Assembly (NCBI RefSeq): GCF_005406215.1
Contig: NZ_NXMA01000010.1
Coordinates: 19,247 to 83,246, forward strand
Source: Campylobacter aviculae
GTDB lineage: Bacteria; Campylobacterota; Campylobacteria; Campylobacterales; Campylobacteraceae
Direction of reading: 5' to 3'
DNA length: 64,000 bases
Made by a program: the position numbers and the translations under genes. Of the stretch, positions 10,744 to 63,768 are shown one piece after another (within the stretch, counting starts at the first letter, position 1; each line of letters begins with the position of its first letter). The notes under the pieces are model-generated. The model searched no databases. It saw only the letters and a program-made list of their open reading frames with translations, and was not told where the DNA came from.

Positions 10744-12545
10744 AGAATTTTATCCAAATTTTAAAGGAAAATAATTTATTAAAAATCATCGAAGAGCCCG
10801 TCGATGTCAATCTTGAAATCGCACACTTAGCTTATATAGAAGCAAAAAAAATGGAAGAGGGTAAGGCTTTGCTTTTTAAAAACCCTATTGATAAAAAATC
10901 AGAAAAAAAATATAAATTTCCAGTTTTAATGAATACTTTTTGCAATCAAAAAGCCTTAAATTTAGCTTTTGGAAGAGATTTTAATGAGGTAGCAAATGAA
11001 ATTTCAAAATTAACTAAACTTCATATTCCTACAAATTTCAAAGCAAAAGTAGATTTTTTTATGAATTTGTTAAGCCTTAAAAATATTCCTCCTAAAAGAC
11101 TAAACGCCAACAAATTTCTTTATAATTATGAAATTTTAAGTTCTCTTAAGGAACTTCCTATACTCAAAACTTGGGAGGATGATGCTGATAAATTTATCAC
11201 TATGGGGCAAGTTTATACTCATAATTTGGATAAAACTCAAAATAATCTTGGAATGTATCGTTTGCAAGTGAGTGGAGAAAATGAACTTTTAATGCATTGG
11301 CAAATCCATAAAGATGGTGCTAATTTTTATCACGAATACAAAAAGGCAGGTTTTAAAAAAATGCCTGTTAGTGTAGCTATTGGTGGAGATCCGCTTTATA
11401 TTTGGTGCTCTCAAGCTCCACTACCAAAAGGAATTTTTGAACTTTTGCTTTATGGTTTTATCAAAAAGACTCCTGCCAAGCTTACACCTTGTGAAAATGG
11501 TGTTTTTGTCCCTTTTGATAGTGATATAGTTATAGAGGGTTATGTGGATTTGGAAGAATTTAAAATAGAAGGACCTTTTGGCGATCATACGGGTTTTTAT
11601 ACTCCAGCAGAACTTTTTCCTGTCATGAAGGTTGAAAAGATTTATGCCAAAAAAGACGCGATTTATCAAGCAACCGTTGTAGGAAAACCTCCTTTAGAAG
11701 ATAGAATTATGGGACTTGGAACTGAACGTATTTTTTTACCTCTTTTACAAACTTCTGTTCCGGATTTGATCGATTATAAAATGCCTGAAAATGGAGTTTT
11801 TCACAATCTTATTTTGGCTAAAATTGATGCAAAATACCCCGCACACGCACAGCAGATTATGCATGCTTTTTGGGGCGTAGGGCAAATGAGTTTTGTTAAA
11901 CATGCAATTTTTGTAGATAAAGATGCCCCTAATTTGGATGATTATGATACGCTTATCCCTTATATACTCAATCGCTTTTGTATAGAAAAATTACTCATAA
12001 GTGAAGGAATTTGTGATCAATTAGATCACGCTTCACCTAATGCTTGTTTTGGTGGAAAAGCAGGACTTGATGTTTGTGATAAAAATGAGATAGAAGAGCT
12101 TGAAATTTTAGAAGATGAAAAATTAAGAGAGCTTTTTACATCCGAAGTAGAACTCATTGCTTTAAAACAATTTTATAAAGAGTGCAAAAGCCCAATAGTT
12201 TGTATTTTACTTGACAAAAAAGAAAAAATTTCTCAAATTTTTGAAAGATTATTAAAATTTAAAAAGCATTTTAGAATTTTAGTGTTTTTGGATGCAAATA
12301 ATAAATTAGAAAATCCTTATATGCTTGTATGGCGAGTAGTTAATAATATCGATGCGAAAAGAGATTTTTTTATACAAGATAAAAGATTGGGTATAGACGC
12401 AAGTGCTAAGGGTGAAATTGAAGGTTATACTAGATCTTGGCCTAAACAGACTGATTGCAATGAAGGTGTAATACAAGATCTTATTTTGCGTAATATTTTA
12501 GAAAATGATCCACAATTGTTTAAAAAGTTTGAAATTGTAGGTTAA
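10740..12545 (+). CDS. ubiD: UbiD family decarboxylase
   Basis: A prenylated-FMN decarboxylase of the UbiD family, 601 residues as expected. It contains GMYRLQVSGENELLMHWQIH near residue 165-185, the cofactor region IGGDPLYIW near 215, the glutamate motif EGPFGDHTGFY near 278, and a DHASP segment near 425. In organisms that make menaquinone by the futalosine route, as Campylobacter does, such a protein may act on a naphthoate intermediate rather than in ubiquinone synthesis; that is inference. It is the last gene of the run; the next gene, flaG, has its own promoter motifs. Confidence 0.88.
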   Translation: MKNFIQILKENNLLKIIEEPVDVNLEIAHLAYIEAKKMEEGKALLFKNPIDKKSEKKYKFPVLMNTFCNQKALNLAFGRDFNEVANEISKLTKLHIPTNFKAKVDFFMNLLSLKNIPPKRLNANKFLYNYEILSSLKELPILKTWEDDADKFITMGQVYTHNLDKTQNNLGMYRLQVSGENELLMHWQIHKDGANFYHEYKKAGFKKMPVSVAIGGDPLYIWCSQAPLPKGIFELLLYGFIKKTPAKLTPCENGVFVPFDSDIVIEGYVDLEEFKIEGPFGDHTGFYTPAELFPVMKVEKIYAKKDAIYQATVVGKPPLEDRIMGLGTERIFLPLLQTSVPDLIDYKMPENGVFHNLILAKIDAKYPAHAQQIMHAFWGVGQMSFVKHAIFVDKDAPNLDDYDTLIPYILNRFCIEKLLISEGICDQLDHASPNACFGGKAGLDVCDKNEIEELEILEDEKLRELFTSEVELIALKQFYKECKSPIVCILLDKKEKISQIFERLLKFKKHFRILVFLDANNKLENPYMLVWRVVNNIDAKRDFFIQDKRLGIDASAKGEIEGYTRSWPKQTDCNEGVIQDLILRNILENDPQLFKKFEIVG

Positions 12546-12551
12546 AATTTA

Positions 12552-12569
12552 TTGGCACACTTTTTGCTT
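12552..12569 (+). promoter_or_regulatory. Sigma-54 promoter motif upstream of flaG
   Basis: TTGGCACACTTTTTGCTT has the GG-N10-GC spacing (GG at 12554-12555, GC at 12566-12567) required by RpoN. In Campylobacter RpoN drives middle flagellar genes. Confidence 0.8.
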
Positions 12570-12616
12570 GTAAAATTATTGTAGAAAATTTAAAATTTTT
12601 GTTAAAAAAGTGTTCA

Positions 12617-12639
12617 TAAATTTATTTTTTTGTCGATAT
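12617..12639 (+). promoter_or_regulatory. Candidate sigma-28 (FliA) promoter upstream of flaG
   Basis: TAAA at 12617 and CGATAT at 12634-12639, 13 nt apart, resemble the Campylobacter FliA promoter pattern. It lies 46 nt before the flaG ATG and downstream of the sigma-54 motif. Confidence 0.6.
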
Positions 12640-12684
12640 AGGTTTTAACTAGCAATAAATTAAAATTTTAAAAAGGATTTTAAA

Positions 12685-13047
12685 ATGGAAATTTCGAAGG
12701 CAAATGAACAAAGGGACGTGGTTTTGGCTAATATAAGCCAAAAAGTGGATAAAACACAAAAGGCTAGTTCAAGCATTCAAGCTGAAAAGCAAAGCCAACA
12801 TGGTGATGAAAATCAGCAAAATTTGAATGAAAAATTAGCAGATATTACGAAAAAATTAAATGAACAAATGGATTCGCTAGATACTAATGTTCGTTTTGGC
12901 TATAGCGATAAAATAGATTCGTTATATATCAGCGTAACAGAAAAAAATACAGGAAGAGAAATTCGTAAAATTCCTAGCGAAGAGGCTATGAGATTAGCAG
13001 AATATTTTAAAGATGCAATCGGTATGATTTTTGATAAGGAGAGTTAA
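12685..13047 (+). CDS. flaG: Flagellar protein FlaG
   Basis: FlaG influences flagellar filament length in Campylobacter. The 120-residue protein has a polar, disordered start (about residues 1-45) followed by the conserved FlaG domain: LNEQMDSLDTNVRFGYSDKI and a C-terminal GREIRKIPSEEAMRLAEYF. The ATG is preceded by AAAAAGGATTTTAAA. It leads the flaG-fliD-fliS-FliT-like group, with 2 nt before fliD. Sigma-54 and sigma-28 motifs lie upstream, which fits late flagellar expression. Confidence 0.92.
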   Translation: MEISKANEQRDVVLANISQKVDKTQKASSSIQAEKQSQHGDENQQNLNEKLADITKKLNEQMDSLDTNVRFGYSDKIDSLYISVTEKNTGREIRKIPSEEAMRLAEYFKDAIGMIFDKES

Positions 13048-13049
13048 AA

Positions 13050-14987
13050 ATGGCATTAGGTAGTTTATCAAGTTTGGGTTTTGGATCTGGGGTTTTAACA
13101 CAAGATACTTTAGATAAGTTAAAAGAAGCGGAAGAAAAGGCTCGTGTAGATATTTATACATCAAAAATAGAAGAAAACACAACAAAACAAAAAGATTTAA
13201 CTGAAATAAAAACAAAATTGCTTGCATTCCAAACAGCGGTTTCTTCTTTGGGTGATGCAACCGTTTTTGCAAAAAGAAAAGTAAATGCGAGTGTGAGTAC
13301 AAATCCTCCAGCGAGTTTGACGGCTAGTAGCGGTGTGTCTTTGCAAAGTATGAAAGTCAATGTAACTCAACTTGCACAAAAGGATGTTTATCAAAGCAAA
13401 GGTTTAAAGAATGATAGTGGTTACATCAATGCAAGTTTAAAAGATCCTACAAGTCTAACTTTTTTCTCTAATGGTAAAGAATATAGCGTAACTATTGATA
13501 AAAATACAACTTATAAAGATTTAGCAGATAAAATCAATGATGCAAGTGGAGGAGAGATAGTTGCAAAGATTATCAATACTGGAGAAAAGGATACTCCGTA
13601 TCGTTTAACTTTGACAAGTAAAGAAACTGGTGAAGATCATGCGATCAGTTTTTATCCTGGAAAAAAAGATGCTGATGGAAAATATCAAGTTGATGACAAT
13701 GCAAAACAGGTTTTTGAAAGTCTTGGCTGGAAGTTAGATGATGATGCTTTAAATAAAGAAGATTATGATCCTTCTAAAAGCAAAAATGGTGTAGGGATAA
13801 TTGATAATGAAGACAATCCTTTACATATCCAAAAAGCACAAAATGCAGAATTTACTCTTGATGGAATCAAAATGACAAGATCAAGCAACACAGTTACCGA
13901 TCTTGGAGTGGGGATTACTTTAACTTTAAATTCAACTGGAGAAATTAATTTTGACATTCAGCAAGATAATGAAGCTGTAACTAAAGCAATGCAAGAATTA
14001 GTAGATGCTTATAATGATTTAGTGACCAATTTAAATGCCGCTACAGATTACAATGCTGAAACCGGAACCAAAGGGACTTTACAAGGGGTTAATGAGATTA
14101 GTTCTATTCGTTCAAGTATTATTTCAGCTTTGTTTGATTCTCAATCTATAAGTGGAACGGTTGAAGATGATAATGGTAATAAAGTCAGTGCCAATGTTAT
14201 GCTTTCTATGCAAGATTTTGGTTTGGCTTTAGATAAAAATGGGAATTTAAGTTTCGATTCTTCAGTATTTGAAAGCAAGGTAAAAGAAAATCCAGATCTT
14301 GCAGAAAGTTTTTTTGCGGGTATTACAAAATATGAAGATATTAGTCATACTGGAGATTTGATCAAAGAAAGTAGTTTGAAAGATTATTTAGGAGATGATA
14401 AAGGGATAACTTTTGAGTCAGGTAAATTCACCATAGTTTTCAATAATGAAACTTACGATCTTTCAAAAACCGTTGATGGGACTAAGTTTAAGCTTATAGG
14501 CGATACAGAAGAGGAAATGCTACAAAACTTAGCCAGCCATATCAATAGTCTTGGTATTGAAGGGTTGGATGTTAAGGTTACAAGTTATGATAAAGATGGT
14601 GAAAAAGGCTTTAAACTTAAATTTAGTGGCGATGGTAGTTCAGATTTTGCGATTAAAGGAGATGAAGAGTTTCTTAAAAAATTTGGTTTAAGCGAAACAA
14701 CTATTGCTGCAAAACCTATTGAAGGTAAGGGTATCTTTGCTCAACTTAAAGCGACACTTCAAGGAATGACAGGAACTAATGGTTCATTAACTAAATATGA
14801 TGAAAGTTTAACCAATGATACTAAATCTTTAAAAGAGTCAAAAGAATCAGCTCAAGAATTGATTGATGCTAGATATGATACTATGGCAAATCAATGGTTG
14901 CAATATGAAAGTATTTTAAATAAACTCAATCAGCAATTAACCACCGTTACAAATATGATTAATGCTGCAAATAATTCAAATAATTAA
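13050..14987 (+). CDS. fliD: Flagellar hook-associated protein 2 (filament cap)
   Basis: FliD forms the cap at the tip of the flagellar filament and is secreted through the flagellar export system. The 645-residue protein opens with SLSSLGFGSGVLTQDTLDKL, the usual FliD N-terminus, and ends with a heptad-like C-terminal helix (QWLQYESILNKLNQQL... NAANNSNN). The central region is variable, as expected for the exposed domains. It sits in the flaG-fliD-fliS order. Compared with the C. jejuni sequence that I recall, the middle is clearly diverged, one reason for not naming the species as C. jejuni. Confidence 0.96.
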   Translation: MALGSLSSLGFGSGVLTQDTLDKLKEAEEKARVDIYTSKIEENTTKQKDLTEIKTKLLAFQTAVSSLGDATVFAKRKVNASVSTNPPASLTASSGVSLQSMKVNVTQLAQKDVYQSKGLKNDSGYINASLKDPTSLTFFSNGKEYSVTIDKNTTYKDLADKINDASGGEIVAKIINTGEKDTPYRLTLTSKETGEDHAISFYPGKKDADGKYQVDDNAKQVFESLGWKLDDDALNKEDYDPSKSKNGVGIIDNEDNPLHIQKAQNAEFTLDGIKMTRSSNTVTDLGVGITLTLNSTGEINFDIQQDNEAVTKAMQELVDAYNDLVTNLNAATDYNAETGTKGTLQGVNEISSIRSSIISALFDSQSISGTVEDDNGNKVSANVMLSMQDFGLALDKNGNLSFDSSVFESKVKENPDLAESFFAGITKYEDISHTGDLIKESSLKDYLGDDKGITFESGKFTIVFNNETYDLSKTVDGTKFKLIGDTEEEMLQNLASHINSLGIEGLDVKVTSYDKDGEKGFKLKFSGDGSSDFAIKGDEEFLKKFGLSETTIAAKPIEGKGIFAQLKATLQGMTGTNGSLTKYDESLTNDTKSLKESKESAQELIDARYDTMANQWLQYESILNKLNQQLTTVTNMINAANNSNN

Positions 14988-24952: not shown

Positions 24953-25066
24953 TTTTAGATTAATTGATATTTAAGTTTATCATAGATAAAATTATTATTT
25001 AAATCATTTTTAGTTTGAAGATGGTTTTGTTAAGGTTAAATGAAATTTGAGAAAACAAAGAGATGA

Positions 25067-25076
25067 GGGGGGGGGG
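25067..25076 (+). repeat. G10 homopolymer at the cetA translation start
   Basis: Ten Gs directly after an ATG (25063-25065) and A, and 10 nt before the ATG at 25087. Such runs in Campylobacter vary in length by slippage. Depending on the start used, this tract either lies inside the first codons or forms the ribosome-binding region. Confidence 0.9.
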
Positions 25077-25086
25077 TATAGTCAAT

Positions 25087-26463
25087 ATGAATAACGGATT
25101 GTTTTTGACTATTTTTTTAAGTGTTTTAGGATTTCTTGGATCCTTTTTTATTCATGTGTATATTGGAGTAGCGATTTTTTCTTTGATTATTGCTTTATCT
25201 ATTTATCTTTATATACATCTTAAGGATGAACAAATAATGATAGATAAATTATATAATCTTTGTAAAGAGCTAAAAGAAGGGAATTTTGACAATAGGATTG
25301 TTTATGTTAATACAAAGAGTAAAAAATTTGCAGAAATTGCTGATAACTTAAATAATACTATTGATAATCTTGAAGCTTATTTAAGAGAAATCAATACTTC
25401 TATAAGCTGTTCTCAACATAGAGAATTTTATCGTAAAGCTTTACCTGAAGGGTTAAGAGGTATATTTGCTCATAATATCGAATTTATAAATAAAGCGTTG
25501 AGCAATATTGAAAATACTGCAAAATCTACATTTAAAAATGCCCTATCAAGAACTTTAATGGATTTAAGCCTTGGAAATCAAAACAAGGATATGTCTCAAA
25601 TTTCAACTTCTTTAAATCAGGATATCGGTGTAATGAGGGGTGTCCATGAAGCTGTGAATTCTATAACTCGCACGGCTACAGAGAATGGAAATGAAGTGGA
25701 TTCTTTACAGAATTCTATGGTTTCTTTAATGGAAGTGGTAAATTCTAGCAAAGAAACTGTTCAGACTTTTGTAACCAATTCTCAAAGCATTACTTCTGTG
25801 GTTGAGGTGATTAGGGATATTGCAGATCAAACCAACTTACTTGCTTTAAATGCGGCTATTGAAGCAGCACGAGCTGGAGAGCATGGGCGAGGATTTGCTG
25901 TTGTGGCTGATGAGGTTAGAAAATTAGCAGAAAGAACTCAAAGATCTACAAGTGAAATTTCTATAGCAATTCAGACTATGCAACAAGATTTCGTTAATAT
26001 TCAAAACGATAGTGAACAAGTTTTTGATATAGTCAGTCAATCTGAAGAAAGAATTCATAAGTTTTCTGAAGCCTTTAAAGGTTTGGAGGAAAATAGCTCT
26101 ATGTTAGGGAAGGATTTTGCAGAATTAGCCAATAGATTGATTTTATCTGCCATTAAAATTGATCACATTCTTTATAAATCTAATATTTATTTAAACCTTA
26201 ATGGAGCACAAGAATTTAATCTTTCTAGCACAGATCCAATTTCAAATCTTTGTTTAGATGAAAAAGTAAAAGAGGAGATTGGTAAATTTATTTCAGATTC
26301 AGAATTGGATTCAGCTAAAGAAATAATTAGAGACAATGCGCAAAATGCTATAAAAGAATCAGCTGCGGAACACATAGATCAAAAGATTTATGATTTAATT
26401 GTTAATGATATCAGTGCTTTAGAACAAAAAAGTAGTGAGATTTTAGACAAGTTAAAGATTTAA
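25087..26463 (+). CDS. cetA: Energy taxis transducer CetA (methyl-accepting type)
   Basis: Membrane-anchored chemotaxis transducer that pairs with CetB to signal energy status to CheA/CheW. From the ATG at 25087 it has 458 residues: an N-terminal membrane hairpin (about residues 4-48, no periplasmic sensor), a HAMP-like linker, and the highly conserved signalling tip [30 protein letters not shown] around residue 247. An alternative in-frame ATG at 25063 would add MRGGGIVN, encoded through the G10 tract. The family length and the lack of a ribosome site before 25063 favour 25087. The C-terminal part ([12 protein letters not shown]) resembles the start of a CZB domain. Confidence 0.88.
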
Positions 26464-57445: not shown

Positions 57446-58826
57446 ATTTTTAAGTCAGCAAAGGCCAAAAATTCTCATTATCGGAGATTTTATGGTAGAT
57501 AATTATACTTGGTGTGATTGTTCTCGCATTAGCCCTGAAGCCCCTGTTTTGGTGGCAAAAACTTCAAAGCAAGATCAAAGGCTTGGTGGAGCTGCAAATG
57601 TTTATGCAAATTTAAAGAGTTTGGGAGCAGATGTTTTTGCATTGGGTGTTATAGGTGATGATAAAAATAGTGAGTTTTTAAAAGAAAATTTAAAGGGTGA
57701 GTTTTTGATCCAAAAGGGACGTAAAATTCCATTTAAAAATCGTATTATGGCACATAATCAGCAAGTATTAAGGCTTGATGAAGAAGATGTAAATGATATA
57801 ACATTAGAAGATGAACTCATCGCTTTATTTTGCAAATATGTTAAAGATTTTCAAGCAGTGGTTTTGAGTGATTATGCTAAAGGGGTTTTAACTTCTAAGG
57901 TGTGTAAGACATTTATACAAAAAGCTAATGAATTAAACATTCCTATTTTAATCGATCCAAAAGGAAGTGATTTTAGCAAATATAGTGGCGCAACTTTACT
58001 TACTCCTAACAAAAAAGAAGCTTTAGAGGCTTTAAAATTTGAAAATTTAGATGGAGAAAATTTAGAAAGAGGCATTAAAAAATTAAAAGATGATTTTAGT
58101 TTAAAATATTCTATGATTACTCTTTCAGAAGCAGGTATTGCTGTGTATGATCAAAAATTACACATTGTACCTGCTAAGGCTTTAGAAGTGTATGATGTTA
58201 CCGGAGCTGGAGATAGTGTGATCGCGGTTTTAGCTTTTTGCTTGGCAAATAAAGTGGATATTTTTAAGGCTTGTGAAATTGCTAATGAAGCAGCAGCGGT
58301 TGTTGTGAGTAAAGTGGGCAGTGTGAGTGTGAGTTTTGATGAGATAAAAAGCTTTAAAAGAAGTGATTTGGAGAAAAAAATTGTTAGTAAAAATGAGCTT
58401 ATGAAAATTTTAAATGATAAAAATAAAAAAATCGTTTTTACTAACGGCTGTTTTGATATAGTGCATTTTGGGCATATAAAATATCTTCAAAAAGCTAAAA
58501 AATTAGGTGATATACTCATAGTAGGGCTAAATTCTGATGAGAGTGTGCGTCGCCTAAAGGGAAATGAAAGACCTATAAATTCAGAGTTTCAAAGAGCTTG
58601 TATGTTGGCAGCTTTTTATTTTGTGGATTTTGTTGTGATTTTTAATGAAGATACACCTTTAAAATTAATCGCAGATTTAAAGCCTGATATTTTGGTTAAG
58701 GGTGCTGATTATGAAGGGAAGGAAGTTGTGGGTGCAAATCTTGTTTCAAGGGTTGAATTGATCGAATTTGAAGAGGGTTTTAGTACGAGTAAAATTATAG
58801 AAAAAATTAGGAAACAAAATGATTAG
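57438..58826 (+). CDS. hldE: Bifunctional heptose-7-phosphate kinase / heptose-1-phosphate adenylyltransferase
   Basis: Two-domain enzyme of heptose synthesis, 462 residues. The N-terminal PfkB-type kinase has [19 protein letters not shown] near residue 50 and the catalytic [14 protein letters not shown] near 253. The C-terminal cytidylyltransferase-like domain begins near 335 with [18 protein letters not shown] (the HxGH motif) and ends [11 protein letters not shown]. It overlaps hldD by 8 nt and gmhA by 8 nt. Confidence 0.95.
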
Positions 58827-59379
58827 CTTAGTAGAAAAAGAATGGCAAGAACATCAAGAAGTATTAAAAGCGAGTGAAGTTCTTAAAGGACAAATTGCAA
58901 AAGTAGGCGAGCTTATATGCAAATGCTTAAAAGAAAATGGCAAAATTCTCATTTGTGGAAATGGTGGAAGTGCTGCAGATTCTCAGCATTTTGCTGCTGA
59001 GCTTAGCGGTCGCTATAAAAAAGAACGCAAAGCTTTAGCGGGTATAGCTTTGACTACCGATACTTCGGCACTTAGTGCTATAGGAAATGATTATGGATTT
59101 GAGTTTGTATTTTCAAGACAGCTTGAGGCTTTGGCAAGTGAAAAAGATATCTTAGTGGGAATATCAACAAGTGGAAATAGCCCTAATGTTTTAGAGGCTT
59201 TTAAAAAAGCAAAAGAGCTTAAAATGCTTTGTATAGGACTGAGTGGAAAAAAGGGTGGAAAGATGAATGAAATTTGCGATTATAACCTTGTTGTGCCAAG
59301 TAATGATACAGCAAGAATTCAAGAAATGCACATTTTAATCATCCATACACTTTGTCAAATTATAGATAAGGAATTTTAA
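58819..59379 (+). CDS. gmhA: Sedoheptulose 7-phosphate isomerase
   Basis: First enzyme of heptose synthesis. The 186-residue SIS-domain protein has [19 protein letters not shown] near residue 44-62, the [20 protein letters not shown] stretch and [15 protein letters not shown] near 115, and ends with [11 protein letters not shown]. It overlaps hldE by 8 nt and its stop overlaps the start of the glycosyltransferase gene downstream (TAATG). In C. jejuni this gene is next to waaF; here three genes lie between. Confidence 0.95.
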
Positions 59380-60135
59380 TGAAAGCGTTTATAATCAATC
59401 TAGAACGTTCTAAGGATAGAAAAGAACATATGCAAAAACAAATTGCTAAGCTTTTTGAATATAATCCTAATTTAAAAGAAAAACTAGAGTTTGTGTTTTT
59501 TAAAGCTGTGGATGCAAAAAATAATGATCATTTAGAATTTAAAGAACATTTTCCTTGGTGGGCTTCTTGGGTATTTGGAAGAGAATTAAGCAATGGAGAA
59601 AAAGCCTGTTTTGCTAGTCATTATAAATTATGGCAAGAATGCATTAGGTTAAATGAGCCTATTATCATCTTAGAAGATGATGTGGAATTTAGTGATGAGT
59701 TTTTAAATAGGGGGGGGGTATTTAGACGATTTAATACAAAGTCGTTATGAATATATAAGATTTTGTTATACCTTCGATAAAAAATTATATGATTTAAATG
59801 ATGGATATTGTATTAGTTTTGCAAGATTAAATGGAACTCAAGGATATTTTCTAAAACCTAGTACTGTAAGGAAATTAATAAATTGTAAAAAATTTATATG
59901 TCCAGTAGATGATTATTTGGATCAATTTTATAAACACAGAGTTTTAAATATAATTAAAAAGCCTTTATTATTGAAACAATCTTTTGATTTTGGAAGTTCT
60001 ATTGATGATCGCAATATCTTAACATATAAAATTCCAATTCATAAAAAAATCATAAGAGAAATTTTTAGATTTTATTCAAGTATTTTTAGAATAGCATTCG
60101 CGTTTTATATAAAGAAAAAAATGAAATTAAAATAG
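59379..60135 (+). CDS. Glycosyltransferase family 25, split by a G9 tract (phase OFF as read)
   Basis: A GT25 (LPS/LOS glycosyltransferase) gene in two frames. The first part, 123 residues to a stop at 59748-59750, has FIINLERSKDRKEHM, GEKACFASHYKLWQECI and IIILEDDVEF, the family motifs. At the G9 run (59710-59718) the frame is lost; the +1-shifted frame then continues without a break to the stop at 60133-60135 with GYLDDLIQSRYEYIRF, GTQGYFLKPSTVRKL and CPVDDYLDQFY, the family C-terminus. With G8 or G11 the two parts join to a protein of about 251 residues. It is the last gene of the heptose operon (start overlaps gmhA). Confidence 0.88.
59710..59718 (+). repeat. G9 homopolymer inside the GT25 gene
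   Basis: Nine Gs after codons TTT TTA AAT A. This is the exact place at which the two halves of the GT25 gene change frame; loss of one G or gain of two restores it. Poly-G tracts of this length switch surface-glycan genes in Campylobacter. Confidence 0.92.
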
Positions 60136-60151
60136 CCTTTTAAAGGCTATT
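60131..60151. terminator. Bidirectional terminator shared by GT25 and SGNH-like genes
   Basis: AATAGCCTTT / AAAGGCTATT, a 10-bp stem with a single central base that in practice forms a loop of a few nucleotides. The stop codons of both convergent genes lie within it, and a T-rich stretch follows on the + strand. Confidence 0.75.
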
Positions 60152-61277
60152 GATTATTTTTTATGTATTGTATGAAAGGATTTAAATCATAGTTTTTAAT
60201 TTTTTCTTCCATGGTTTTAAAATAACTATCCATATTTTGTGGTGTTAAAATGTGAGTTTGTGTTTTTATGGCATCAAGTTGCATAGAATTCATAATGGAA
60301 TTATAGTGCGATGGATCTTTGTAGTTTGCTATATTATCCGCATAATCAAGATCATCAAAACCAAAAATTTTAACGTTAGGGTATTTTTGTGTTTCCAAAA
60401 TGAGCCATTTTAATACTGCTTGATATTTTGAAAATAAAATGCTGTCTTTGTTGTAATACTCTGGATCAAGATATAAAATTCTGTAGAGTAATTTTGAGTG
60501 TGTAGGGATAATTAAATCAAATTGCGTTTTAGGATGTGCTTTGATAAAACTTAAAAGATAAGTTTTTATGTATTGTTTATTTTTTTCTATATCTATATCA
60601 AGTTGTGGTGAAAATTTTTGTGCATTGAGTATCATATTTTTTAATTTTTGTTTATCATCTTCGTTTTTGTATTTCATCCAATTATCAAAACCACCAAAGA
60701 ATTTTTTATATTCTTTTTCCCAATTAAGTAGTTTTTCTAAATTTGCATTTCCGACACAATATTCCTTTGTAGAAAATTCCAATGCACATAAAATGAATTT
60801 TTTATTTAGATAAACTTTAAAATCATTATAGATATTATCATCGTATAAAAAATCAAAAGAATTTATGGGCGGGTGGTTGGGTATTTTTAAGTTTGGATCA
60901 TTTAAGGTAAAAGCATCAAGAGTATAAATAACTTGTTTGATATCTTTGCTTAAAAACAAATAATTTAAAATAATTGCTCTTTCATTAAGATAGCTTCCCC
61001 ACATAGATAAATTAACCCATTTACGACCTAACTTTTTATCAGCTTCTTGTGCTGAGGTATTTTCTGTCATAGAGGTGCCTATGATAACTGAATTAAAATT
61101 TTCATTATCTATAATGCCTTTAGCTGAAAGTCTGATATTGTTTAGGTAAGTTTTTTCTCTAAAATAGGGTTTGTGATAAAGCATCAATGGATCATAAATA
61201 TAAAGCAAAGCAAAAAGGGCAAAAGAAGAAATAAAATTAAAAGCTAGAACAATGAAAATCCATTTTTTATGACTCAT
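60147..61277 (-). CDS. SGNH-hydrolase-like membrane-anchored protein paired with MBOAT
   Basis: A 376-residue protein with one N-terminal membrane segment (WIFIVLAFNFISSFALFALLY) and a large periplasmic part. An SGNH-type block I is seen as IIGTSMTEN near residue 64, and a DPSHYN stretch near 330 gives a D-x-x-H-like pair, so an esterase or acetyltransferase fold is likely. It lies 8 nt downstream of an MBOAT gene; in many glycan O-acetylation systems such a periplasmic protein accepts acetyl groups passed by the MBOAT protein (as PatB or AlgJ/AlgX with PatA or AlgI). The target (LOS or peptidoglycan) is inferred from context only. Confidence 0.72.
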   Translation of the reverse strand: MSHKKWIFIVLAFNFISSFALFALLYIYDPLMLYHKPYFREKTYLNNIRLSAKGIIDNENFNSVIIGTSMTENTSAQEADKKLGRKWVNLSMWGSYLNERAIILNYLFLSKDIKQVIYTLDAFTLNDPNLKIPNHPPINSFDFLYDDNIYNDFKVYLNKKFILCALEFSTKEYCVGNANLEKLLNWEKEYKKFFGGFDNWMKYKNEDDKQKLKNMILNAQKFSPQLDIDIEKNKQYIKTYLLSFIKAHPKTQFDLIIPTHSKLLYRILYLDPEYYNKDSILFSKYQAVLKWLILETQKYPNVKIFGFDDLDYADNIANYKDPSHYNSIMNSMQLDAIKTQTHILTPQNMDSYFKTMEEKIKNYDLNPFIQYIKNNQ

Positions 61278-61285
61278 TTTTTATC

Positions 61286-62785
61286 CTAAAAATTAAAATA
61301 TATAAATTCAACGTAAGGTGCATAAATCAATGTCGTTAAAGCTACAAAGATTAAAAATGCTGTAAAAATAGCACTTTTGTAGTTGATTTTTAAATTTTGT
61401 GTTTTATCAATACTATTTTTAAATACAAGACATAAAATAAAAGCAACGATAAAAAAGCCGATAGTTTTATCATTACCACCTATAGTTTTTAAAACATCAG
61501 GTGCTTTATAAAATTTATGAGGAAGTTCTACCCAAACAATTCCAAACATTGATTTTAAAAGATTTATAGCTCCTGTTAAATTTTCACTTCTAAAGAAAAT
61601 CCAAGTTATATTAATAAAATTAAAAGTAATAAACCAAGCTAAGAATTTATAAATCTTAGAGTTTAGAAATTTTTTACCATCTATATAAAAGCTGTAAATT
61701 CTATGACTTACCATAGCAAGTGCATGCAAAATTCCCCAGATCACAAATCCCCAACCCGATCCGTGCCATACTCCACTTACAAAAGCCACAATAAAAAGAT
61801 TTCTTAAGTTAATAATTTTTCCAGCACGATTTCCACCTAATGGTATATAAAGATAATCTTTTAAAAATCGCCCCAAAGTTATATGCCATCTTCTCCAAAA
61901 ATCAGCAATATTTAAAGCTTTATAAGGAGAATTAAAATTTGAAGGAAGAGTGATACCAAAAAATAAGGCCAAACCTATAGCCATATCACAATACCCACTA
62001 AAATCGAAATAAAGCTGAAAAGTATAAGAAAGGCTAGTAACCCAAGCTTCAAAGATATTTAAAAAACTTCCATCTTGAACCACCTTAAAACCAGCATTTG
62101 CCCATACAGCAAAATTATCTGCTATAAAGATTTTTTTAAAAAATCCAATAGAAAAGATAAACAAGCCTTTAGCCATAAGTTCCCAATTAACCAAAGAATT
62201 GTTTTTATTTAAAAGAGAATGAAATTGAGGCATCATTTCTTTATGATGAACAATTGGACCTGCTATAAGTTGCGGAAAAAAACTGACAAATAAGCAAAAA
62301 TCGATAAAATCAATTTTTTTCTTTTTTGATAGCTCGTCGATATTTACCTTTTTGTAACAATCCACCAAAAAGGCAATTTTTTGAAAAGTAAAAAATGAAA
62401 TTCCTAAAGGTAATAAAATGTGAGGTAGCGGGATATTAAAATCTAAATTAATGAGTTTTGAAAAAAGATTGAAATTTTCTAAGAAAAAATCCGTATATTT
62501 AAAAACGCCTAATAAAATAAGATTAAATGTTATACCAAGGCAAAGTAGCTTATATCCCTCTCCATGATCTTTTCTTAAAATCCAACTTGCAAGAAAATAA
62601 TTCGTAATAGTTGAAAAGGCTAGAATGAAAATGTATTCTACTTTAAAATAGCCATAAAAAAATAAACTTGCTAAAGCTAAAAATACTTTTGCGCTAGTAT
62701 AAAATTTATAAGCTTTTAAAATATAAAACCCTATTAAGGTAACAGGTAAAAAAGCAAAAATAAATACATAAGAACTAAAAAGCAT
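61286..62785 (-). CDS. MBOAT family membrane O-acyltransferase (AlgI/PatA-like)
   Basis: A 499-residue polytopic protein that is expected to move acyl groups across the inner membrane. It shows LYFDFSGYCDMAIGLALFFG near residue 255, then NFNSPYKALNIADFWRRWHI (FWRRWHI family signature) and the essential histidine in SGVWHGSGWGFVIWG near 333. The start is the ATG at 62785, 6 nt after AGGA; a TTG 6 nt upstream is in frame. It lies 41 nt after waaF on the same strand, and just before the SGNH-like gene, so waaF-MBOAT-SGNH is probably one transcript. Confidence 0.88.
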   Translation of the reverse strand: MLFSSYVFIFAFLPVTLIGFYILKAYKFYTSAKVFLALASLFFYGYFKVEYIFILAFSTITNYFLASWILRKDHGEGYKLLCLGITFNLILLGVFKYTDFFLENFNLFSKLINLDFNIPLPHILLPLGISFFTFQKIAFLVDCYKKVNIDELSKKKKIDFIDFCLFVSFFPQLIAGPIVHHKEMMPQFHSLLNKNNSLVNWELMAKGLFIFSIGFFKKIFIADNFAVWANAGFKVVQDGSFLNIFEAWVTSLSYTFQLYFDFSGYCDMAIGLALFFGITLPSNFNSPYKALNIADFWRRWHITLGRFLKDYLYIPLGGNRAGKIINLRNLFIVAFVSGVWHGSGWGFVIWGILHALAMVSHRIYSFYIDGKKFLNSKIYKFLAWFITFNFINITWIFFRSENLTGAINLLKSMFGIVWVELPHKFYKAPDVLKTIGGNDKTIGFFIVAFILCLVFKNSIDKTQNLKINYKSAIFTAFLIFVALTTLIYAPYVEFIYFNF

Positions 62786-62826
62786 TACCAATCCTTAAAA
62801 CAGAAAAGGTAATTATACAAAAAAAA

Positions 62827-63768
62827 TCAAAATAAATTTTTAGCCCTTTCTATAACCAAATCAGGTTTTAAATCTTTCATGCATTTATGATGTTTTAAAG
62901 GACAAGTTTTTTGCATACAAGGCATACATTCTAGATTTAAATGCACTAATTTTGCGTTAGGATTTTGCCAAGGCGAGGTTTGGGTAAATTTGGTAGGACC
63001 AAAGATAGCTATGGTTTTGATTTTATAAGCAGCTGCTATGTGCATAGGACCGCTATCGTTTGTTATGAAAAGATCGCAAAGGGCTATATTTTGACATAGG
63101 GTTTGGATACTTGTTTTATTGCAAAGATTTTTAGCTTTAATGTGTGATTTTTTTAAAAGCCTTTCGATTTCATCGCAAAGAATTTGTTCGCCATTGCCTG
63201 CACCAAAAATTAAAATTTCATGGCTTTTTGAAAATTCTTTTGCTACCTCGGCAAAATACTTAGCATCCCAACGCTTGGCACTTCCAAAGGTGGCTCCTGG
63301 ATTGATTCCTAGAATTTTTTTACCATTTTTAAGTATCAATGGGTGTGAAAATTTTGCTTTAATTGGGAGTTGCAGTTCTTTAGAATGAATTTTGAAATTA
63401 AAAGAATTTTCTATAAAATAAAGGTATTTCAAAACTTGATGTTCTTCTTTAAATTTACGCTTGTTGAAAAAATATCTTTTTTTTGCTTTTAATATATTTA
63501 AAATAATTTTAGAAGATAAGGCCGATCTAAAAGAGATGGCAAAGTCTATTTTAAATTCTTTGCGTAATTTTAAGGCTTGTTTGTAGCGTTTTTTTCTATC
63601 TTCTATGATGATTTTAGAATGAGAAAAATTTTTAAAAAGCTGGGTGGAAGCAAAAGATCCATAAAGGATAAACTCAGCGTCTTTAAAATATTCTTTTATG
63701 CCATATAAAGCTGCTGAAGCCATCACAGCATCGCCTAGCCAAGTGGGAAGATGGATGAAAATTTTCAT
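62827..63768 (-). CDS. waaF: LOS heptosyltransferase II
   Basis: Adds the second heptose to the LOS inner core. The 313-residue GT9 protein begins MKIFIHLPTWLGDAVMASAAL, has LGINPGATFGSAKRWDAKYF near residue 148 and the signature FITNDSGPMHIAAAYKIKTI near 233 followed by FGPTKFTQTSPW. CMPCMQKTCPLKHHKCM near 278 is the usual cysteine-rich tail. AAGGTTTTC precedes the ATG on the minus strand. WaaF marks one end of the LOS locus in Campylobacter; the interior of that locus therefore starts at the right edge of this window. Confidence 0.94.
   Translation of the reverse strand: MKIFIHLPTWLGDAVMASAALYGIKEYFKDAEFILYGSFASTQLFKNFSHSKIIIEDRKKRYKQALKLRKEFKIDFAISFRSALSSKIILNILKAKKRYFFNKRKFKEEHQVLKYLYFIENSFNFKIHSKELQLPIKAKFSHPLILKNGKKILGINPGATFGSAKRWDAKYFAEVAKEFSKSHEILIFGAGNGEQILCDEIERLLKKSHIKAKNLCNKTSIQTLCQNIALCDLFITNDSGPMHIAAAYKIKTIAIFGPTKFTQTSPWQNPNAKLVHLNLECMPCMQKTCPLKHHKCMKDLKPDLVIERAKNLF

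Follow-up and report, generated by a model that had tools for sequence, protein, structure and literature searches.

Which glycan might be acylated by the products of the two genes that follow waaF in Campylobacter aviculae? The question was raised by a 64,000-nucleotide stretch (hereafter the window; contig NZ_NXMA01000010.1, positions 19,247 to 83,246 of the forward strand, assembly GCF_005406215.1), in which a gene for an MBOAT membrane O-acyltransferase and a gene for a membrane-anchored SGNH-type protein lie in the interval between waaF and gmhA. The window ends where the contig ends (83,246 bases) and the lipooligosaccharide (LOS) locus was seen up to that point. The pair is probably an acyl relay of the PatAB/DltBD kind which would O-acylate, most likely O-acetylate, the LOS core in the periplasm; acylation of LOS had been proposed in a preliminary description of this DNA, and that interpretation is partly supported by the results below. 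The features of the locus are as follows.

62827..63768, minus strand: waaF, lipopolysaccharide (LPS) heptosyltransferase II, first gene of the unit (TIGR02195, 155.5 bits, over cut-off; PF01075)
61286..62785, minus strand: MBOAT membrane O-acyltransferase, 499 amino acids, intact (Pfam PF03062)
62555..62563, minus strand: MBOAT codons 75-77 (GGA GAG GGA), an interrupted G run at the site of G8-14 in 25 of 63 copies
61763..61765, minus strand: predicted MBOAT catalytic histidine, residue 341, within WHG
61289..61306, minus strand: C-terminal FIYFNF acyl-tyrosine shuttle motif, residues 494-499
60147..61277, minus strand: SGNH-fold, membrane-anchored predicted acyltransferase, 376 amino acids (DltD/SGNH fold matches)
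61071..61073, minus strand: predicted nucleophile Ser-69, within GTS, block I
60306..60317, minus strand: predicted Asp-321 to His-324, DxxH, block V
60131..60151, no strand: 9-pair stem between the convergent genes, terminator-like on both strands (terminator scan, weak)
59379..60135, plus strand: GT25 glycosyltransferase gene, frame broken at a G run (PF01755)
59710..59718, plus strand: nine-G run inside the GT25 gene
58819..59379, plus strand: gmhA, convergent on the pair (TIGR00441, over cut-off)

The order on the minus strand is waaF, MBOAT gene, SGNH-type gene, with spacers of 41 nt (62786-62826) and 8 nt (61278-61285) as read from the sequence; the open reading frames (ORFs), strand and gaps all match the preliminary description. 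The MBOAT start was taken as the ATG at 62785, while an upstream TTG start would give 501 amino acids. The GT25 gene said to converge on the pair was found on the plus strand from 59379 onward, and its homology to four intact relatives jumps from frame 3 to frame 1 at the nine-G run. Four terminator-like sites were counted in the region compared to 2.1 (sd 1.9) in shuffled sequences, so that the stem at 60131-60151 is weak evidence.

The MBOAT protein belongs to Pfam family PF03062 (123.1 bits, E 2e-35, gathering cut-off 27). His-341 was unchanged across 26 aligned sequences including that of the window, and F[IL]YFNF formed the C-terminus in 67 of 68 loci, the window included. DltB was the top NCBIfam match, at 152 bits against a cut-off of 375 and thus below the DltB equivalog threshold; DltB was also the closest sequence-related solved structure and a fold match. 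In C. jejuni PatA the acyl-tyrosine shuttle function of a C-terminal FXYXXF has been proved, and such a motif on an MBOAT is tied to acyl-CoA donors in the text of the same article (PMC12148441).

The SGNH-type protein was identified by its predicted structure (AlphaFold, pLDDT 90.4), which has an SGNH fold and an N-terminal helix at residues 2-28. DltD headed the Foldseek list and was the widest solved match; these fold lists come from a re-inspection of Foldseek matches, and a family missing from them was not counted as evidence. Ser-69, Asp-321 and His-324 were invariant among 31 aligned proteins, and among 13 diverse sequences Ser-69 and His-324 were kept in all 13, with position 321 being Asp in 11 and Glu in 2. 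No meaningful match was obtained with the single protein against Pfam, NCBIfam or PDB sequences. The 31-row profile gave Rab5 (E 0.06) as the top rows against PDB, which were taken as chance, and Pfam searches with the 31 members gave scattered chance matches, with none to DUF459. The label 'SGNH-like' is therefore upheld by the predicted structure and not by sequence profiles. By predicted fold and kept residues, an adjacent SGNH-fold partner with Ser and Asp-His is present, as in other acyl-relay pairs.

What was seen directly is how the genes are ordered, their motifs and conservation, and that the pair is independent of the peptidoglycan genes; both folds are predicted. The following relay is proposed. 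The MBOAT would take an acyl group from cytoplasmic acyl-CoA and load it onto the tyrosine in the FIYFNF motif at its own C-terminus; this tail would hand the group to Ser-69 of the SGNH protein, which in turn would transfer it onto a hydroxyl group of LOS that has just been flipped. The acceptor is plausibly the heptose-containing inner core, which waaF helps to build.

The link to LOS was examined by gene order (G and L numbers below are our own for genomes and loci). The pair was present in 16 of 49 genomes of the genus, and in 14 of these 16 the MBOAT gene and then waaF stood directly beside the SGNH gene. This linkage was kept also where gmhA was not a neighbour; where in view, gmhA lay on the far side of the pair, with GT25 between in several. 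Of the other two genomes, G016 has its MBOAT gene and its waaF both at contig ends (a decayed second copy, L041, is also present), and G030 has waaF on a different contig. In a class-wide draw a homologue was found in 64 of 298 genomes, 14 of those in the genus; the other 50 were represented by at least one stretch each and not by every match, giving 52 stretches besides five pair-less sites. A scan of a collection of genome contigs gave two loci, and a plasmid collection gave no match.

Among 19 distant loci (L120-L124, L134-L147), the SGNH gene converges on gmhA-hldE-hldD-gmhB in two other genera (L121, L123), and in the genus of L121 a remnant SGNH gene lies beside gmhA (L134). Neighbours were typed with Pfam for selected genes of L121, L123, L138, L145, L146 and L147, the other 13 loci being compared with the window's heptose genes and a few more. 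An O-antigen-ligase-domain (WaaL-like) gene was found together with glycosyltransferases in L123, with the pair behind them; with a heptosyltransferase in L138; next door in L145; and with a lipid A acyltransferase in L147. In L146 the pair lies among sugar-nucleotide genes. The connection to LOS first drawn from context is supported by the waaF linkage and by some distant relatives at gmhA or LPS-core genes.

Several results weigh against LOS as the substrate. Nothing matching waaF or gmhA was visible in the nearer non-genus loci (L093-L119, L125-L127, L148-L150), several of which are truncated by a contig end. The neighbours typed by Pfam in L095, L097, L100, L109, L110 and L116 were mostly flagellar, metabolic and tRNA-modification genes; L097 also has a family-2 glycosyltransferase and L116 a UDP-sugar dehydrogenase. 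The enzyme may therefore act on other glycans. Five of the 33 pair-less genomes were inspected, and their waaF, 77-95% identical, adjoins gmhA (L128, L129) or GT25-gmhA (L130-L132) with no pair at the site. Divergence of the SGNH protein was weakly correlated with that of waaF (Mantel r 0.22 over 11 loci, a value reached in 722 of 9999 permutations), which suggests that the pair may move as a block; L027 (waaF on another contig) and L035, L037, L039, L040 and L041 (broken SGNH or missing waaF) were left out, and L029 and L033 each entered with a single copy. Finally, the SGNH-type protein has no characterised sequence relative. A flagellar link (loci near flgG, flhA and fliM/fliY) was set aside, as the flagellar genes differ between lineages.

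In the foremost alternative, the pair acylates some other periplasmic glycan (a capsule precursor, lipid-linked N-glycan or exopolysaccharide) and its adjacency to waaF reflects a shared insertion site. The closer loci without waaF or gmhA, several of which adjoin flagellar or unrelated genes, and the pair-less sites of the relatives (L128-L132) speak for it, but linkage to waaF in 14 of 16 genomes and to gmhA or LPS-core genes in distant genera speak against it, and it is considered unlikely.

A second peptidoglycan O-acetyltransferase, redundant with PatAB, was also weighed, as the pair shares its enzyme class and shuttle motif with PatA and the acceptor could be periplasmic. Like PatA-PatB of C. 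jejuni, the pair combines an MBOAT with a separate membrane-anchored SGNH protein, an FXYXXF C-terminus and the WHG histidine. In the preliminary description, the case counted against LOS was one in which the pair would be the sole PatA/PatB homologues of the genome; instead, an MBOAT, a DUF459 protein and an Ape1_N protein stand in a row elsewhere in it, forming a complete patA-patB-ape1 operon (assigned by Ape1_N and PDB matches). The PatB encoded there matches the solved C. jejuni PatB with E 8e-108 and DUF459 with 207 bits, whereas the pair's SGNH protein resembles this PatB at a BLASTP E of 0.53, and so is not of the PatB/DUF459 sequence type. The partner has no DUF459 match and is matched most widely in structure by DltD. 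The pair also differs from PatA-PatB in sitting with waaF and not with ape1, whose operon is a different locus. Of the 49 genomes, 32 had a PatB match below E 1e-70 and 33 had an Ape1 match, which in one case was a fragment. Eight of the 16 pair-bearing genomes (G001, G013, G019, G020, G021, G022, G024, G046) have an MBOAT only at the waaF site, with no PatB below 1e-70 and no Ape1, while the remaining eight have the pair plus patA, patB and ape1. The separate operon, and the lack of all three genes from half of the pair-bearing genomes, indicate that the pair is not the peptidoglycan system, and a redundant role in peptidoglycan appears very improbable.

Equally improbable is a Dlt-like aminoacylation, in which a DltA-like enzyme would charge a carrier protein, the MBOAT would accept the aminoacyl group from that carrier and the SGNH protein would attach it to LOS. 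DltB and DltD head the NCBIfam and Foldseek lists, respectively, the DltB-DltD system is likewise a two-protein relay (DltB being the best sequence-related solved structure and DltD the widest fold match, so that the partner's predicted structure is DltD-like), and the genome contains two gene pairs of an adenylation enzyme and a 75-amino-acid carrier (PF00550; L152, L153). The adenylation enzymes score below the DltA cut-off, however, and do not track the pair: at E 1e-100 they were detected in 12 of the 16 genomes with the pair and in 25 of the 33 without it, and they were missing from pair-bearing G010, G021, G028 and G029. Moreover, the MBOAT carries its own shuttle motif, of the kind tied to acyl-CoA donors (PMC12148441), where the Dlt system uses DltX; there is no DltA or DltC beside the pair, the host is Gram-negative and the MBOAT falls short of the DltB cut-off. 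Three DltA-like adenylation enzymes were counted in the genome (L152:1432-3180, L153:1432-3180 and L151:1432-2946), on contigs other than that of the pair, and two of them adjoin a carrier-protein ORF. One of the three shares 90% and 83% identity with the other two, and by eye the middle parts differ most. That the pair is a functionless relic in this lineage is scarcely credible, for the window pair is fully open with catalytic positions kept, even though split or decayed frames occur in relatives (e.g. the SGNH gene in L035, both genes in L039 and L040).

A G run in the MBOAT gene would, in many relatives, make the proposed LOS modification phase-variable. Seventy sequences were compared, and the 5' part of the MBOAT gene could be read in 63 copies, that of the window among them; a run of G8-14 was present at about codons 70-85 in 25 of these, 11 belonging to family f1 (that of the window) and 14 to the presumably Helicobacter-type family f2. 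The frame changes at the run in 12 of the 25 copies, including near relative G010 (ten G), while tblastn homology continues in one frame in 13; among these 13, stops follow behind the run in L028 and L039, and both L098 copies change frame far later, near residue 331. The G runs elsewhere in the MBOAT genes of L143 and L144 were not counted in the 25, and frame changes with no G run (L040, L112, L135, L137, L141) were taken as ordinary decay. It is likely that the run is a phase switch in many relatives, as judged from single assemblies, which cannot show switching. The window copy has GGA GAG GGA at this site, with no run and an open frame, and would therefore be translated without such switching. 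MBOATs and acyltransferases were absent from the main text of PhasomeIt (PMC6321876) and of a phase-variation review (PMC8355987) as available; no counterpart could be assigned here to the C. lari entry UPTC4110_0710 ('hypothetical protein, G (9-11)').

Elsewhere in the window, a ten-G run (25067-25076) immediately follows the first start codon of a 466-amino-acid ORF (25063-26463), and so that gene too may be phase-variable.

Among characterised systems, AlgI-AlgJ/AlgX and the secondary cell wall polymer (SCWP) pair PatA1-PatB1 also use an MBOAT and an SGNH protein on an exported glycan (PMC9558356, PMC9487903), but their substrates differ and no ALGX or DHHW Pfam domain was matched in our SGNH-type protein. 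AT3-SGNH O-acetyltransferases likewise acetylate LPS or LOS outside the cytoplasm (PMC12148441), but consist of an AT3 family protein fused to SGNH, with no MBOAT. Bacterial MBOAT targets are given as alginate, cellulose, peptidoglycan and teichoic acid in the text of an AT3 review (PMC9558356), to which SCWP is added by that of an SGNH review (PMC9487903); the LOS core is named in neither review text, and no paper that assigns an MBOAT-SGNH pair to LOS or LPS was seen in searches of open-licence literature, judged for the most part on the basis of listings. An introgressed MBOAT gene, its function only guessed, is described in a 2025 C. coli study (PMC12102941). In LOS typing, two unnamed genes are recorded between waaF and gmhA in C. 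jejuni LOS classes W and E and one in class B, and five C. coli types have one added gene there (beta-Kdo transferase, phosphoheptose isomerase and glycosyltransferases by GenBank annotation; PMC8970381).

Campylobacter estrildidarum is the closest relative that bears a name (SGNH identity 85%). The pair is not restricted to unusual species, as proteins related to it exist under the names C. jejuni and C. coli, with 50-61% (SGNH) and 69-77% (MBOAT) identity. Public names of related proteins, including these entries, are 'MBOAT family' for the MBOAT and 'hypothetical protein' for its partner. O-linked glycine, a substituent of C. jejuni LOS, was considered as a product of the pair and is not claimed here.

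Variants of the pair were also seen. Tandem second and third SGNH copies stand behind one MBOAT gene in L118, L150, L095, L119 and L136, which suggests one acyl exporter feeding several transferases. In L147 an ALGX-domain protein (12395-13471) is encoded directly behind the MBOAT gene, and the usual SGNH homologue follows after a few more genes. An intact homologous pair (L044:277-2894; 43% and 39% identity) is carried on a contig titled Candidatus Gastranaerophilales, possibly by cross-phylum transfer or as a misbinned contig.

In sum, the pair is read as an acyl relay of the known MBOAT-SGNH kind whose target is most likely LOS, and many relatives appear to have a G-run switch in it. Our confidence is evenly divided on the wider proposal that Campylobacterota possess a dedicated MBOAT-SGNH acyltransferase of the LOS core, encoded as a waaF-MBOAT-SGNH unit, converging on gmhA or linked to LPS-core genes in distant genera and governed in two families by a G run at a single set position of the MBOAT gene, with cells flipping between acylated and bare LOS. 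If the LOS assignment is true, the LOS/LPS core would be a further entry among the few glycans known to be substrates of MBOAT-SGNH relays, and part of the waaF-gmhA gene variation recorded by LOS typing (PMC8970381) would be accounted for. The binding of phage, antibodies and antimicrobial peptides could change with an acyl cap that is switched on and off at the inner core.
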